Notes under the pieces: generated by a model
The model's database searches: none
The model's input: only the letters and a program-made list of their open reading frames with translations
What the model was told of the DNA's origin: nothing
Part shown: positions 6,659 to 27,714 of the stretch, piece by piece
Numbering within the stretch: position 1 is the stretch's first letter
Layout: every line of letters begins with the position of its first letter
Position numbers and translations under genes: made by a program
From: Acidimicrobiia bacterium
GTDB lineage: Bacteria > Actinomycetota > Acidimicrobiia > Spongiisociales > UBA11373
Length of the DNA: 35,317 bases
Direction of reading: 5' to 3'
NCBI GenBank assembly: GCA_040878325.1
Contig: JBBDMM010000010.1
Location: 232,658 to 267,974, forward strand

Positions 6659-6798
6659 TGGTGCAGCCCCTGAGGGGGGAGCACGCAACCCGGAGGCCTG
6701 GGTGGCACGCAGACGGCCCCGCCGACGAGCTCGAGACTCGCTCGTGCGGCGCCTGCCCCTCGTTTCCCGTCCGACCATCGCCTCTGAAAGGAGACCCC

Positions 6799-7353
6799 GT
6801 GGATATCCGCGTCCATGCAACGAACATGAGCCTCTCGGACGAATTGCGGGAAATGGCCACCGGGAAGGTGGAGCACGCCACCCGCGTCTTCGATGACGGC
6901 GAGTTCATCGATGTCGAGTTCTCGGTGGAGCGGAATCCGAGGATTTCGGAAGAGAAGTACCGGGTGGAGATCACCTCGAAGGTGGCCGGTCAGGTGGTGC
7001 GCGTCGAGGCTGCCTCGTTCGAGGAGCGTGTCGCGCTCGATCTGGCGATCGACAAGTACGAGCGGCGCCTTCGGAAGCTGAAGGAGAGGATCATCACCCT
7101 CCATCGCCAGCCTCACGAGAAACGACTCAATGACGGCGGGGCGAGCGTCGAAGAACACAACGAAGACGAAAACGAACTTCGGATTGATCGTGTCAAGCGA
7201 TTTGCGGTCAAGCCGATGACAACCGAGGAGGCGGCCCTTCAGATGGAACTGCTTGGACACAGCTTCTATCTATTCCTCAACGCCGATACGGACCGATACG
7301 GGGTCCTGTATCGCCGGCGTGGGGGATCGCTCGGGCTGATTGAACCAGAGTGA
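6799..7353 (+). CDS. hpf: Ribosome hibernation promoting factor, long form
   Basis: A 184-residue long-form HPF/RaiA protein. It binds the small ribosomal subunit in the mRNA/tRNA channel and, through its C-terminal domain, pairs 70S ribosomes into inactive 100S dimers during starvation or stress. Residues 1-100 form the ribosome-binding domain (IRVHATNMSLSDELRE start). A charged linker with an EEHNEDENE stretch follows. Residues 130-184 are the dimerisation domain (KRFAVKPMTTEEAALQMELLGHSFYLFLN). The GTG at 6799 follows AAGGAGA by 5 nt, a clear Shine-Dalgarno. Its stop overlaps the GTG of the response regulator gene by 4 nt, so the two are probably translationally coupled. Confidence 0.93.
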   Translation: MDIRVHATNMSLSDELREMATGKVEHATRVFDDGEFIDVEFSVERNPRISEEKYRVEITSKVAGQVVRVEAASFEERVALDLAIDKYERRLRKLKERIITLHRQPHEKRLNDGGASVEEHNEDENELRIDRVKRFAVKPMTTEEAALQMELLGHSFYLFLNADTDRYGVLYRRRGGSLGLIEPE

Positions 7354-7997
7354 CCAGTGTTCTCGTCGTAGACGACGTCGAGCTGTTTCGAACCGGCCTC
7401 GCGGCCGCGCTCGAGCGCGAAGGCTTCACGGTGGCCGGTGAGGCGAGCAACGCCGAGCGGGCCGTGTCGCAGGCCGAATCGCTGCAGCCCGACCTCGTGC
7501 TTCTCGACATCCTCATGCCGGGCATCTCAGGCCTCGACGTCGTAGAGAAGATCAGAGCCGTGTCGCCCCGCTCGAGCGTGGTCATGCTCAGCGCCAGTGA
7601 ATCCGAGGAGGACCTCCTCGAATGCATCAGGGCTGGTGCCCGCGGCTACCTCGTCAAGGACGCCCCGTTCGGCGAGCTGGCGAGCTCGCTCCACTCCGTG
7701 GCCGCCGGCGGCGCGGCGATCTCCGGTCTCATGACCGGCAAGCTGCTCGACGTGCTGTCGCAACTCCTGCGCCACCAGGACTTCGTCGCCCCGCGCCGTC
7801 CCGCCCTCACCGGCCGCGAGATCGAGGTCCTCCAGCATGTCGCCAAGGGAATGACATCAAAGGAGATCGGGCGCGTGCTATTCATAAGCGAGAACACCGT
7901 GAAGAATCACGTGCGCAACATCCTCGACAAGCTGGGCCTCCATTCCCGCAACGAGGCCGTGCTGTACGCGATTCGCGAGCACCTCGTCGAGCTGTGA
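7350..7997 (+). CDS. NarL/FixJ-type response regulator (REC plus LuxR HTH)
   Basis: A 215-residue two-component regulator. The receiver domain has acidic residues at Asp8-Asp9, the phospho-acceptor Asp53 in LLDILMPG, Ser81 in the switch position and Lys103. A LuxR-type helix-turn-helix (about 148-211, LTGREIEVLQHVAKGMTSKEIG) should bind DNA as a dimer. No sensor kinase gene is adjacent, so it is an orphan within this window. GTG overlaps the hpf stop (GTGA), and the HEAT-repeat gene starts 1 nt after its stop. Operon position suggests that it shares regulation, or function, with the HEAT and HD-GYP proteins. Its targets cannot be deduced. Confidence 0.92.
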   Translation: MTSVLVVDDVELFRTGLAAALEREGFTVAGEASNAERAVSQAESLQPDLVLLDILMPGISGLDVVEKIRAVSPRSSVVMLSASESEEDLLECIRAGARGYLVKDAPFGELASSLHSVAAGGAAISGLMTGKLLDVLSQLLRHQDFVAPRRPALTGREIEVLQHVAKGMTSKEIGRVLFISENTVKNHVRNILDKLGLHSRNEAVLYAIREHLVEL

Positions 7998-21365: not shown

Positions 21366-22520
21366 TCAGGTCGTGGAGCCGGGAATCCAGTCGCGGAGAC
21401 GTTGGCGCTTGGCGGTCGTCACTGCCTGGTCGACCAGATCGTCGATCGCAACAGCAATTGAAACGGCCTGTGCCGGCTTGGTGGATACGGTCACCCGACC
21501 GCCTTCGCTGATGTCGCACAGTTCCCGGCTCCTCGCCGATGCCTCGTAGGTGCCGATTTGTTCGGCTCGCGTCCTGATCTCGCTCTTGCTGAGGCCGAGC
21601 AGAGGGCGCAGCACAGGAGTCGGCACCATCCGGTCGAGGCTGGCGAGGTTGTCGAGGGTCTGCGTCGAGACCTGGCCGAGAGATTCGCCAGTCACCAGTG
21701 CCCGGCTGTCGGCGAGGTCGGCGGTGATCCGGTCGGCGGCGAGGTACATCAGTGCCTTCAGGGCCATCTGGCGCATTCGGGGATCGACCCTGCGGGTGAG
21801 TTCTGGGACCAGGGGCTCGATGTCGGCGATAATCCACCAGGGGTCGCTGCCTGCCCCGAATCGCTCGAACAGGTCGTGGGCGATCCCGGCGGCGTGATCT
21901 GCCTGCCCGCATCCGAGGGAGAAGTGGAGGTAGTCGAGAACCACGCCGCGGCGGGCGACCATGTACGCCGCGACCGGGGAGTCGATTCCGCCGCTGAACA
22001 TCGCCAGAGCCCGGCCCTGGGTGCCCAGGGGGAAGCCCCCGACCGCAGGATGACGCTCCACGGTGAGGTCGGCGACCTCATCGACCACCCGGACGACGAC
22101 TGTGACCTCAGGGTTGGTGAGGTCGACTCGACCGCCGGCGTCGACGAGGCGGGAGCCGGCGGCGACGGCGAGATCCTGAGAGGTCCACGAGTGCAAGCCC
22201 ATCCGACGCGGCCTCACCGCGAACGAACGCCCGGCGACGGCGGCGGCAAAACGATCGGCGACGGTGTCGGCGAGGCCCTCCAAGTCGGTGGCGGCAACCC
22301 GTTCGACCTTTTCGACGGCGGCGATACCAAAGATTCGGCTGAGTCGTTCCACCCCTCGAGGGTCGGTGGACTCGACCTGGAGGCGGTGGCCCGCGAGGCG
22401 GGTGACCCGCACCGCACCATCCAGCGCGGTTGCAATGTTCTCGGTCAGGACGCGTTGCATCCGGCGCTGGGTGCGCGGCGACTTCAGGTAGATCTCGGTA
22501 TCGAGGGCGACTACGAGCAT
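21366..22520 (-). CDS. thiI: ThiI-like tRNA 4-thiouridine / thiamine sulfurtransferase
   Basis: A 384-residue protein with an N-terminal ferredoxin-like plus THUMP region (to about 160) and a PP-loop ATPase domain (SGGIDSP at 176-182). This is the ThiI core that adenylates tRNA uridine 8 and inserts sulfur to make 4-thiouridine; some homologues also serve thiazole synthesis. TGESLGQVSTQTLDNL (from about 278) and Cys335 (RELCDISEGG) are characteristic. The C-terminal rhodanese domain of E. coli ThiI is absent, as in many ThiI proteins, so sulfur must come from a partner such as a cysteine desulfurase; none is encoded nearby. The ATG at 22520 gives the standard MLVVALDTEIYLKS start; an in-frame ATG at 22565 adds 15 residues and is less likely. 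Confidence 0.88.
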   Translation of the reverse strand: MLVVALDTEIYLKSPRTQRRMQRVLTENIATALDGAVRVTRLAGHRLQVESTDPRGVERLSRIFGIAAVEKVERVAATDLEGLADTVADRFAAAVAGRSFAVRPRRMGLHSWTSQDLAVAAGSRLVDAGGRVDLTNPEVTVVVRVVDEVADLTVERHPAVGGFPLGTQGRALAMFSGGIDSPVAAYMVARRGVVLDYLHFSLGCGQADHAAGIAHDLFERFGAGSDPWWIIADIEPLVPELTRRVDPRMRQMALKALMYLAADRITADLADSRALVTGESLGQVSTQTLDNLASLDRMVPTPVLRPLLGLSKSEIRTRAEQIGTYEASARSRELCDISEGGRVTVSTKPAQAVSIAVAIDDLVDQAVTTAKRQRLRDWIPGSTT

Positions 22521-22581
22521 TGCACGGCCCGGATGGGGAGGGAGATCCTGAGGATACCGCCTCATCCGCGCGACGAAGGCC

Positions 22582-24671: not shown

Positions 24672-26390
24672 GTGTCCGGAGACATCTATCAATTGTGTAG
24701 TGACATCGTCGACGAGACAGTCGCCCGACTTCCCCTCCTGGGCACCTACCTCGGCATCCCGGGCCAGGACGACAAGTGGGACGACTTCTCGCCGATCGGG
24801 CAGCAGGCCGCGGCCGACATGGTGCGCGACCAACTCGCCCGGGTCAACGCGATCGAAGTGCCCGACGACCAGTGGGCGAGAATGGCCCACCGGGTCGCGG
24901 TCCATTCATGTTCCGATTGGGTCAACTGGTTCGATTCGGGCGAGCAGTTCCTCGAACTCAACAGCATCTCGTCGCCCCTGCAGGACATTCGCGAGATCTT
25001 CGACCACATGGACACCTCCACTGCGGAGGGCTGGTCGAACATCGCCGCCCGGTTGGAGGGTCTCGGCGGGGCGCTCGGCGGCTACCAGGAGCTGCTCGAG
25101 GTGGGACGAAGCCAGGGCAAGACCGTGGCGCGGCGTCAGGTGGTGGAGGCGGTTCGCCAGGCGCGCAACCACGCCGGCGACCAGTCCGGCTTCAATCCGC
25201 TGGCTGCAGCGGTGGTCGAGTCGGGAGTAGCCGATGCTCGGACGATCGAGCGGATCGAGGCAGGCATCGGGTCGTCCCGGGCGGCGTACGGGTCGTTGGC
25301 GGACTACCTCGAGAGCCGATATCTGCCGAATGCGATCGCTGCCGACGGGGTCGGCAAAGAGCGGTATGTGCGCCTCGCCCGCAAGTTCCTCGGGTCGGAC
25401 CTGGACCCCAAGGCCACCTACGAATGGGGTTGGGAAGAGGTGGCCCGGATCAGGGCTGCGATGCAGTCGGTGGCCGGCGAGATCCTCCCCAGCGGCGATC
25501 TGCCGGAGGTGCTGCGCGTGCTGCAGACCGATCCTGCCCGGGCCGCCCACAGCCAGGCCGAGTTCCGTGACCTGATGCAGGAGCGCCTCGAGGTCGCGCT
25601 GACCGACCTCGACGGCTCACACTTCGACGTGCCCGCGCAGATCAGGAAGGTCGAGGTGAAGATGGCTCCCCCGGGAGGATCGCTGGGGGCTTACTACGTC
25701 AGCCCCAGCGAAGACTTCTCCCGCCCCGGCTCGGTGTGGTGGTCGAAGGGCGACAAGCAGGTGATCCCTCTATTCGACGAAGTGACCACCGCCTATCACG
25801 AGGGGTTCCCCGGCCACCACCTCCAGAGCGGTATCCAGATGACGGCGGGCGACAAGGTTTCCCGGTTGCAGAAGCTCCTCGTGTGGTACTCGGGCAGTGG
25901 GGAGGGGTGGGCGCTCTACGCCGAGGACCTGATGGACGAGATGGGCTATCTAGAGATGCCCGACTATCGGATGGGCAAGCTGGCGGCAGAGATGCTGCGG
26001 GCGTGCCGGGTCGTCATCGATATCGGATCGCACCTCGATCTGCCGATCCCTCAGGGTCAGCCGTTCAATCCGGGGGAGCGCTGGTCCTTCGATTTCGGTG
26101 TCGAGATGCTCGTTGACTATGCCGCTCAAGATCACGACTCGTCGGTATCCGAGATCAACCGCTATCTGGGGTGGGCGGGGCAGGCCATCTCGTACAAAGT
26201 CGGGCAGCAGGCCATCCACGACATCAGGGCCGCTGAGCGACAGCAGCACGGCTCGGCATTCGACTTGAAATCGTTCCACGCCCGCCTGCTCGAGATCGGC
26301 TCGACCGGTTTGGCGGTGATGCGGGAGCACATGGCGGAAACGGGCACCGTGGCCGATAGGCCAGAAACGGCGGGAGGTGAGCGCAAGTGA
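24672..26390 (+). CDS. DUF885 family zinc-dependent hydrolase / putative peptidase
   Basis: A 572-residue soluble protein of the DUF885 family, relatives of zinc carboxypeptidases. The metal-binding motif HEGFPGHH is at 376-383, and the downstream GEGWALYAE (Glu411) supplies a further ligand. TYEWGWEEVARI and PGSVWWS are other family landmarks. No signal peptide is seen, so a cytosolic location is expected. Natural substrates of the family are mostly unknown. The GTG at 24672 has GGAGG 8 nt upstream. Its stop overlaps the start of the beta-propeller gene, which in turn overlaps a beta-grasp protein gene, so the three are probably made together. Confidence 0.85.
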   Translation: MSGDIYQLCSDIVDETVARLPLLGTYLGIPGQDDKWDDFSPIGQQAAADMVRDQLARVNAIEVPDDQWARMAHRVAVHSCSDWVNWFDSGEQFLELNSISSPLQDIREIFDHMDTSTAEGWSNIAARLEGLGGALGGYQELLEVGRSQGKTVARRQVVEAVRQARNHAGDQSGFNPLAAAVVESGVADARTIERIEAGIGSSRAAYGSLADYLESRYLPNAIAADGVGKERYVRLARKFLGSDLDPKATYEWGWEEVARIRAAMQSVAGEILPSGDLPEVLRVLQTDPARAAHSQAEFRDLMQERLEVALTDLDGSHFDVPAQIRKVEVKMAPPGGSLGAYYVSPSEDFSRPGSVWWSKGDKQVIPLFDEVTTAYHEGFPGHHLQSGIQMTAGDKVSRLQKLLVWYSGSGEGWALYAEDLMDEMGYLEMPDYRMGKLAAEMLRACRVVIDIGSHLDLPIPQGQPFNPGERWSFDFGVEMLVDYAAQDHDSSVSEINRYLGWAGQAISYKVGQQAIHDIRAAERQQHGSAFDLKSFHARLLEIGSTGLAVMREHMAETGTVADRPETAGGERK

Positions 26391-27430
26391 CCACGATCGG
26401 GGTAGGGACAGTCAAGGGGGCGTTTCTGTTTCGGTCGGGGAGCAGGGGCTCGTGGGACTTCGAAGCACCCATCTTCAAGGGGTGGGCCGTCACCGCGTTC
26501 GGGCGCGGTCCGTCGGGGGATCATCTGCTTGCCGTTGGGTCGAACTGGTTCGGCGCGGCGATCCACCGCAGCGCCGACCTCGCCACCTGGGAGCAGATAG
26601 TTGATGGGCCGGCATGGCCGGAAGGTGGCGAGCGCAAGCTGAACAACATCTGGACCATCGCCGGTGTCGGAGACTCGCTGTTTGCCGCGGTGGACGAGGC
26701 CGGTCTCTTCCGCAGCGACGACGACGCGGCTTCGTGGCAGCCCGTGGCGGGCTTCAATGAGCACCCGACTCGTCCCGGGTGGCAGCCTGGATTCGGCGGT
26801 CTTGCCGCCCACCGCATTCTCTCCGATCCCGAGAACCCGGGTCGCATGTGGTTGGCCGTCTCAGCCGTCGGCGTCTTCCGCACCGAGGACGGGGGGGAGT
26901 CATGGGCCCTCAAAAATTCCGGCGTCACCAAGGTGGGCCCGAGCGACGAGGACGACGAGATCGGCTTCTGTGTGCACTGCCTCGCCGCCGATCCGCACGA
27001 TGCGAATGTGATCTGGCGCCAGGACCATTCGGGGGTCTACCGCACCATCGACGGTGGCGACGAGTGGCAGCGCATCGAGGAGGGCTTGCCCGCTCGCTTC
27101 GGGTTCACCATCGTGCGAGATGCCGCCTCGGATGCGCTCTTCGTGGTGCCGCTGGAAAGCGATGAGCATCGGATGCCGGTCGGCGGGGCGTTCCGGGTGT
27201 ACCGATCGACCGACCGGGGTGACTCCTGGCAGGTCTCCGGGGTGGGGCACCCCGAGGGCCCGGTGTACGCCGGCGTCTTGCGCGGAGCCGCGGCGACCGA
27301 TGGAGAGGGCGGCGTGTTCCTGGGTACGACGGCGGGGTCGGTCCATCTGACCACCGACGGCGGAGATCACTGGATCACGCTGCCCCAAGTGCTTCCGAGG
27401 ATCCTGACCGTGTCGGTGCTCGAGGCCTGA
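26387..27430 (+). CDS. BNR/Asp-box beta-propeller protein (sialidase-like fold)
   Basis: A 347-residue protein with six Asp-box motifs of the S-x-D-x-G-x-x-W type, at about 61-68, 109-117, 165-173, 219-227, 273-281 and 321-329 (for example RTEDGGESW and RTIDGGDEW). These mark a six-bladed propeller as in sialidases and Vps10-like proteins. The sialidase Arg triad and FRIP motif are not evident, and there is no signal peptide, so a true sialidase is doubtful. A CVHC motif at 195-198 could bind metal. GTG overlaps the DUF885 stop, with GGGAGG upstream. The next gene overlaps its stop by one base. It may be a binding scaffold; function unknown. Confidence 0.82.
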   Translation: MTTIGVGTVKGAFLFRSGSRGSWDFEAPIFKGWAVTAFGRGPSGDHLLAVGSNWFGAAIHRSADLATWEQIVDGPAWPEGGERKLNNIWTIAGVGDSLFAAVDEAGLFRSDDDAASWQPVAGFNEHPTRPGWQPGFGGLAAHRILSDPENPGRMWLAVSAVGVFRTEDGGESWALKNSGVTKVGPSDEDDEIGFCVHCLAADPHDANVIWRQDHSGVYRTIDGGDEWQRIEEGLPARFGFTIVRDAASDALFVVPLESDEHRMPVGGAFRVYRSTDRGDSWQVSGVGHPEGPVYAGVLRGAAATDGEGGVFLGTTAGSVHLTTDGGDHWITLPQVLPRILTVSVLEA

Positions 27431-27714
27431 TGCCCGCGGCCACCGTCCGGATCCCCTCGCTCCTCGCTGACGTCGGGGACGGGCGACGGGAGATTCCGGT
27501 CGTGGCAGAGACGGTGGGCGGGGCGCTTGCCGACCTGTTTGCACGATTGCCGCACTTGCGCGTCCACGTGTTCGACGAAAGCGGCGCGGTGCGGCCCCAC
27601 GTCTCCGTCTTCTATCAGGGACGGGCGGCCAGGGATCAGGCGGCACTGGGCGGGCCGCTTTCCGAGGGATCGGTGATCACGATTCTTCAGGCCGTGTCGG
27701 GGGGATCCGGCTGA
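27430..27714 (+). CDS. MoaD/ThiS-like beta-grasp (ubiquitin-like) small protein
   Basis: A 94-residue protein with the MoaD/ThiS pattern: an N-terminal beta hairpin, a helix (TVGGALADLFARLPHL), and a PLSEGSVITILQAVSGG ending corresponding to the L-x-x-G-D-x-V-x-x-x-x-x-x-G-G of sulfur carriers. The Gly-Gly is at 91-92 and followed by Ser-Gly. Sulfur carriers and ubiquitin-like modifiers are activated at a C-terminal GG, so this one would need trimming, or it may not be activated. No molybdopterin or thiamine gene is adjacent. It is the last gene of the overlapping trio and overlaps the convergent DUF983 gene by 28 bp. Confidence 0.82.
   Translation: MPAATVRIPSLLADVGDGRREIPVVAETVGGALADLFARLPHLRVHVFDESGAVRPHVSVFYQGRAARDQAALGGPLSEGSVITILQAVSGGSG

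Follow-up and report, generated by a model that had tools for sequence, protein, structure and literature searches.

A conserved gene pair encoding an Asp-box beta-propeller and a ubiquitin-like protein, a candidate sulfur carrier for its neighbor

In the genome of an Acidimicrobiia bacterium, a gene encoding an Asp-box beta-propeller and a gene encoding a small ubiquitin-like beta-grasp protein (UBL) form a conserved module, the linkage of which across genomes lies far beyond chance. We propose, at a probability of roughly 0.45, that the UBL is a sulfur carrier of the CysO/SAMP1 kind dedicated to a cytosolic propeller enzyme. This proposal has its observed basis in the coupling of the two genes, the conservation of a Gly-Gly motif in the UBL, the presence of E1-like and JAB metallopeptidase genes in the same genome, a near-invariant cysteine of the propeller (Cys195), and the occurrence of TGA at the Cys195 codon in some relatives.

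The Three-Gene Locus

The window, by which is meant the entire 35,317-nucleotide stretch of DNA analyzed, is part of contig C10; the genome measures 2.2 Mb and is 98.9% complete. On its + strand lie a DUF885 gene (24672-26390; GTG start, 572 aa), the propeller gene (26387-27430; GTG start, 347 aa) and the UBL gene (27430-27714; ATG start, 94 aa), and the open reading frame coordinates confirm the overlaps of 4 nt and 1 nt described in the original prediction. At the propeller/UBL junction (27428-27432, + strand), the propeller stop codon (27428-27430) shares a single nucleotide with the UBL start codon (27430-27432), an overlap that constitutes translational coupling. The identities initially assigned to the outer genes also hold: the first product contains HEGFPGHH and matches Pfam DUF885 at 452 bits (E 9e-135), while the last, a MoaD/ThiS-like protein ending AVSGGSG (QAVSGG-SG), scores 22.7 bits against Pfam ThiS (PF02597), just above the cut-off of 22.5. 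As had been noted, neither the open reading frames nor family scans of the window place a thiamine or molybdopterin gene beside the trio. The closest sulfur gene, 2.1 kb away, is of the ThiI family (21366-22565, - strand); its product carries THUMP and ThiI domains, scores below the equivalog cut-off for tRNA 4-thiouridylase, and yielded no rhodanese domain.

Conservation of the Propeller-UBL Pair

A search for the UBL among 99 genomes of the order showed that the propeller is present in 17 loci, including that of the window, and that the UBL follows it at distances of -4 to +13 nt in 17/17, stopping directly after Gly-Gly in 13 of them. More broadly, a propeller scan of 84,980 species recovered 155 relatives, the best 80 of which were analyzed. 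In every one of these 80, the UBL is the next gene downstream on the same strand, at a distance of 120 nt or less in 78 and of about 960 nt in two. Gly-Gly is likewise present in 80/80 of the UBLs in this best-80 set, and since 73 of them end exactly there, trimming would rarely be needed. The expectations that the two genes would stay together in other genomes and that homologs would conserve the Gly-Gly were thus borne out, and across approximately eight phyla: the best 80 relatives derive from Actinomycetota, Planctomycetota, Gemmatimonadota, Rhodothermota, records named Bacteroidetes, Rokubacteria, Nitrospinota, and one deltaproteobacterial (Myxococcota) genome.

A scan of the phylum Actinomycetota contributed 29 further loci, 27 of which have a downstream UBL, many of these belonging to a more divergent type that ends in GA(I/M)AGG. 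Among plasmid records, the UBL lies downstream of the propeller in Arthrobacter and Nonomuraea and upstream of it in Mitsuaria, P. aeruginosa, Cupriavidus, and Burkholderia, a reversed order that occurs in some Beta- and Gammaproteobacteria; because the partnership is the same despite differing gene order, the link between the two genes appears to be functional. Propellers with no adjacent UBL were encountered in plasmid records of three Rhodobacterales and one Streptomyces.

Of the trio as originally proposed, therefore, the propeller and UBL are kept together, whereas the DUF885 gene adjoins the pair in only two genomes among all pair loci examined, namely that of the window and RBG_16_68_21, in which the three genes are also close together. 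Given this distribution, the DUF885 gene is a lineage-specific operon neighbor lying outside of the conserved unit, and it was ruled out as a component of the system.

Among the loci examined, no third gene recurs generally beside the pair, and no substrate or sulfur-metabolism gene is seen consistently beside it. Recurrent neighbors were seen in planctomycetes alone, and comprise ECF sigma-like genes, MoaA, and DinB-like domains. Specifically, an ECF sigma-like gene of planctomycete type, its product characterized by MFPTT(V/T/L)W, lies upstream of the propeller in seven loci (L070, L071, L083, L086, L091, L096, L101), and a MoaA-like radical SAM gene lies directly 3' of the UBL in L077, L087, and L091, and more weakly in L070, L074, and L076. 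In one further planctomycete locus (L067:8071-8935), the UBL runs past Gly-Gly into a DinB-like domain, recognized by eye.

The Ubiquitin-Like Protein and its Relatives

By prediction, the window UBL is a ubiquitin-like beta-grasp protein with the sulfur-carrier fold of CysO and SAMP1. The closest solved structures are CysO-type carriers and SAMP1, with CysO the better match. Similarities to CysO of the CysO-CysM-Mec+ system of M. tuberculosis (PDB 3dwg, 4n6e) include the fold, a Gly-Gly tail resembling PAVAGG, an adjacent candidate acceptor gene, and the presence of E1-rhodanese and JAB genes in the genome. The pair UBL differs from CysO in that it adjoins a propeller rather than a cysteine synthase, and the window UBL, which has no adjacent CysM, Mec+, or E1 gene, branches apart from it. 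Within the tree, a supported branch (96/86) splits the core pair UBLs, including that of the window, from CysO; type-2 pair UBLs are in part placed on the same side as CysO, and the data do not reject monophyly of the pair UBLs as a whole (p-AU 0.40). SAMP1, the small archaeal modifier of Haloferax (PDB 3po0), shares with the window UBL a VSGG end and sequence similarity, and differs in that the window protein is bacterial, has an obligate propeller neighbor, and, at 44.2 bits, falls below the cut-off of 60 for the NCBIfam SAMP1 equivalog (NF041918).

Near relatives of the pair UBLs include proteins fused to MoeA and others encoded beside an aldehyde ferredoxin oxidoreductase-like gene. In L022 (1489-3003), L027, and L028, a ubiquitin-like domain forms the N-terminus of MoeA, which begins directly after Gly-Gly, and in L019 and L021, a UBL ending VDGG adjoins the oxidoreductase-like gene, an assignment made from motifs.

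The genome of the window encodes one other member of the ThiS family, in which a membrane protein is linked to a MoaD-like domain. Such fusions, in which a MoaD-like domain with an internal VSGG is attached to a multi-pass membrane protein (L001:1489-2469, L195, L197), recur in Acidimicrobiia and related genomes, and might depend on a JAB peptidase for release of the Gly-Gly. The number of ThiS-family genes in 20 pair genomes ranges from one to eight, with MoaD-MoaE fusions and CysO-like proteins represented; since most pair genomes checked have further genes of the ThiS/MoaD family, the pair UBL appears to be an extra, specialized carrier.

Candidate activation genes are found elsewhere in the window genome. 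On contig C4 is a gene for a fusion of an E1-like enzyme with a rhodanese domain, and the gene directly upstream of it encodes a JAB metallopeptidase. A UBL, an E1-rhodanese, and a JAB peptidase make up a known three-part sulfur-transfer set (Iyer 2006, PMC1779556). The original prediction had seen no E1-like gene, which is accurate for the locus but not for the genome, and had reasoned that any activation would occur in trans; the E1-rhodanese and JAB genes on this other contig support that reasoning, and their products could activate the window UBL. The presence of an E1 is not specific to pair genomes, being observed in 38/40 of these vs. 35/40 others.

The Propeller Family

For the propeller, AlphaFold2 returns a model of high confidence (mean pLDDT 88.2, pTM 0.89), and the sole close solved structure is 3b7f (TM 0.90; E 5.5e-71 in an almost full-length sequence match). 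In both sequence and predicted fold, the propeller thus belongs to the 3b7f-type family of Asp-box propellers. The entry itself, Reut_B4987 of Cupriavidus, annotated "glycosyl hydrolase, BNR repeat," is an uncharacterized product of structural genomics that differs from the window protein in having Asp in place of Cys195, and in related Cupriavidus and Burkholderia loci of this type the UBL is upstream, vs. downstream in the window. GH74 xyloglucanases, sialidases, and Ycf48 share Asp-box propeller repeats with the window protein and match it weakly and partially; they have different catalytic sites and are mostly exported. No signal peptide is apparent from the sequence of the window propeller, which starts directly with its first strand.

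In public records, members of the family are annotated as "exo-alpha-sialidase" or "sialidase family protein." Pfam returns only a sub-threshold Sortilin-Vps10 match for the propeller, the NCBIfam model glycosyl_F510_1955 scores 57.6 bits against a cut-off of 175, and no sialidase family in either collection matches at E 0.001. Labeling these proteins as sialidases is probably a mistake.

Outside of the Asp-box glycines and tryptophans, the residues that are near-invariant over 117 members include K10 and a core consisting of W89, W132, H142, S159, C195, H197, Q212, H214, and R299 (gene at 26387-27430, + strand). W89, H142, H197, and F240 each occupy the second position of a blade's first strand (these strands begin at 88, 141, 196, and 239 in the AlphaFold2 model) and would be expected to line the central channel, as first blade strands do in propellers. 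Conservation of inner-strand residues suggests that the propeller is an enzyme or ligand-binding protein rather than a conjugation target or scaffold. Moreover, the core is retained in propellers with no adjacent UBL, which argues that the pocket serves an activity of the propeller itself; the only residues kept in paired and lost in unpaired propellers are V102 and G267, which are not telling.

A Candidate Selenocysteine at Position 195

The codon for Cys195 occupies positions 26969-26971 (+ strand), as computed from the start of the open reading frame at 26387. In two Rokubacteria loci, L085 (propeller gene 6720-7775) and L117 (1955-3010), the propeller gene contains a single in-frame stop, which is TGA and which falls exactly at Cys195, such that the sequence reads DVGY[TGA]VHA where other members have GYCVHG. 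Both frames are otherwise intact and both are followed by a UBL. At the DNA level the genes share 94.5% identity, with zero differences from just before the TGA to codon +39. Downstream of the TGA is a hairpin whose loop contains GGA, spaced from the TGA as is usual for SECIS elements in bacteria. This hairpin, at -17.9 as compared to a mean of -11.3 (sd 3.4) in the Cys genes, exceeds most of these in stability, but is unexceptional relative to shuffled sequences (z -1.3), and the region has no SECIS match in Rfam.

The genome containing L085 also encodes SelD (TIGR00476, 341 bits; L284:6843-7919, - strand), whose gene has a TGA at the well-known selenocysteine site of that protein. A tRNA-Sec was not found in 1.97 Mb of this genome, relaxed settings producing noise only, nor were SelA and SelB found in the ~68% of it examined. 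Replacement of Cys195 by selenocysteine in the two Rokubacteria propellers is probable. Exchange of cysteine for selenocysteine usually marks a catalytic thiol, and because TGA occurs at Cys195 in both loci and in the selD gene of one of the genomes, Cys195 is probably a catalytic residue.

A Proposed Mechanism

The propeller and UBL may constitute a two-component module in which the UBL serves as a dedicated sulfur carrier of the same kind as CysO, SAMP1, and MoaD. First, the JAB peptidase would trim the tail of the UBL where one exists. The E1-rhodanese would then adenylate the Gly-Gly and convert the C-terminus to a thiocarboxylate, and the charged UBL would in turn pass its sulfur either to a small substrate or to Cys195 (Sec195 in the two Rokubacteria) within the central pocket of the propeller. 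The folds of both partners rest on prediction, and we infer from the observations above a physical complex, thiocarboxylate formation, sulfur transfer, and a substrate. Such an arrangement would follow a usual pattern in which the gene for a carrier lies beside that for its acceptor enzyme, as in ThiS-ThiG, MoaD-MoaE, and CysO-CysM (Iyer 2006, PMC1779556).

Several findings weaken this reading. Firstly, either Cys195 or the adjacent UBL can occur in the absence of the other: in proteobacterial members resembling 3b7f, the UBL is retained and position 195 is Asp, and Rhodobacterales propellers keep Cys195 with no adjacent UBL. Secondly, prediction of a propeller/beta-grasp complex, a step that the original prediction had recommended, gave no placement. 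In the joined AlphaFold2 model, for which the L069 propeller and UBL were connected by reading the intervening stops as Gly (a modeling device), both domains are folded and there is no sign of docking (pTM 0.73, tail pLDDT <50, from a shallow alignment of 11 paired rows). Additionally, E1 is not pair-specific, and at the loci examined no sulfur or substrate gene is a consistent neighbor.

Alternative Roles for the Pair

A stable complex would also be expected to display strict 1:1 gene coupling, and the UBL could thus be a non-covalent regulatory or stabilizing subunit, the Gly-Gly of which is kept mainly for its fit to the pocket and takes no part in sulfur chemistry; that a few propeller relatives manage with no adjacent UBL also speaks for such a role. 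An invariant Gly-Gly that in most cases forms the last two residues is, however, the mark of proteins activated by E1 enzymes, and the genome encodes both E1 and JAB. These features, together with the failure of the joined model to dock, make a purely non-covalent role unlikely.

The pair may instead participate in molybdenum or tungsten cofactor chemistry, in which case the UBL would be a variant of MoaD and the propeller would serve as an acceptor or as a factor in maturation. The MoeA fusions and the oxidoreductase-like neighbors of near UBL relatives point in this direction, as do the MoaA genes that follow the UBL in several planctomycete loci and the presence of MoaE in 39/40 pair genomes vs. 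22/40 others. A control with ThiG nevertheless reveals a similar bias (31/40 vs. 13/40), indicating that the MoaE bias largely reflects taxon and genome size, and MoaE co-occurrence was accordingly rejected as a specific link to the cofactor. Given also that canonical MoaD-MoaE fusions occur in genomes that have the pair UBL as well, that one pair genome (G115, 98% complete) has no MoaE, and that neighbors of molybdenum type are not general, we consider such a role quite improbable.

Equally hard to sustain is the notion that the UBL is a SAMP-like modifier attached to lysines, for which the propeller acts as adaptor, ligase-like factor, or chief target. SAMP1 is the best NCBIfam model for the UBL, albeit at about 44 bits and under its cut-off, SAMP1 structures rank among the top PDB matches, and the genome encodes a JAB peptidase. 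Yet CysO, a sulfur carrier, outscores SAMP1 as a match, the inner-strand conservation of the propeller resembles an active or binding site, and a ligase-like gene is never a recurrent neighbor at the loci examined. Lastly, the role for DUF885 put forward in the original prediction, that of trimming the UBL tail or removing the UBL, for which the propeller would be a scaffold or the target, may be set aside as highly improbable despite the proximity of the three genes here and in RBG_16_68_21, as DUF885 is missing beside every other pair locus examined, the majority of UBLs lack a tail that would need trimming, and the JAB peptidase encoded next to E1 is the more natural candidate for trimming tailed UBLs, the SG of the window protein included.

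Implications

No published account of the propeller/UBL pair, and no interpretation of their adjacency, was found in the literature searched, a body that missed most subscription journals. Neighborhoods of ThiS/MoaD genes are listed by Iyer 2006 (PMC1779556), the text of which does not contain propeller, BNR, or sialidase. Public records already show a "MoaD/ThiS family protein" beside an "exo-alpha-sialidase."

The carrier and acceptor pairs ThiS-ThiG, MoaD-MoaE, and CysO-CysM make sulfur-containing metabolites or cofactors. A further pair of this type, conserved in about eight phyla and in which the partner folds quite differently, points to a thio-metabolite or protein modification yet to be described. 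Whether it represents a new class of sulfur- or selenium-handling enzyme, in which a cytosolic propeller with a catalytic Cys or Sec in its pocket is served by its own UBL carrier in many phyla, is a more doubtful matter. For annotation, the finding matters in that the sialidase name of the propeller family is probably a misnomer, and within this sialidase-labeled family the exchange of Cys for TGA singles out a probable catalytic center that offers a direct target for mutagenesis.
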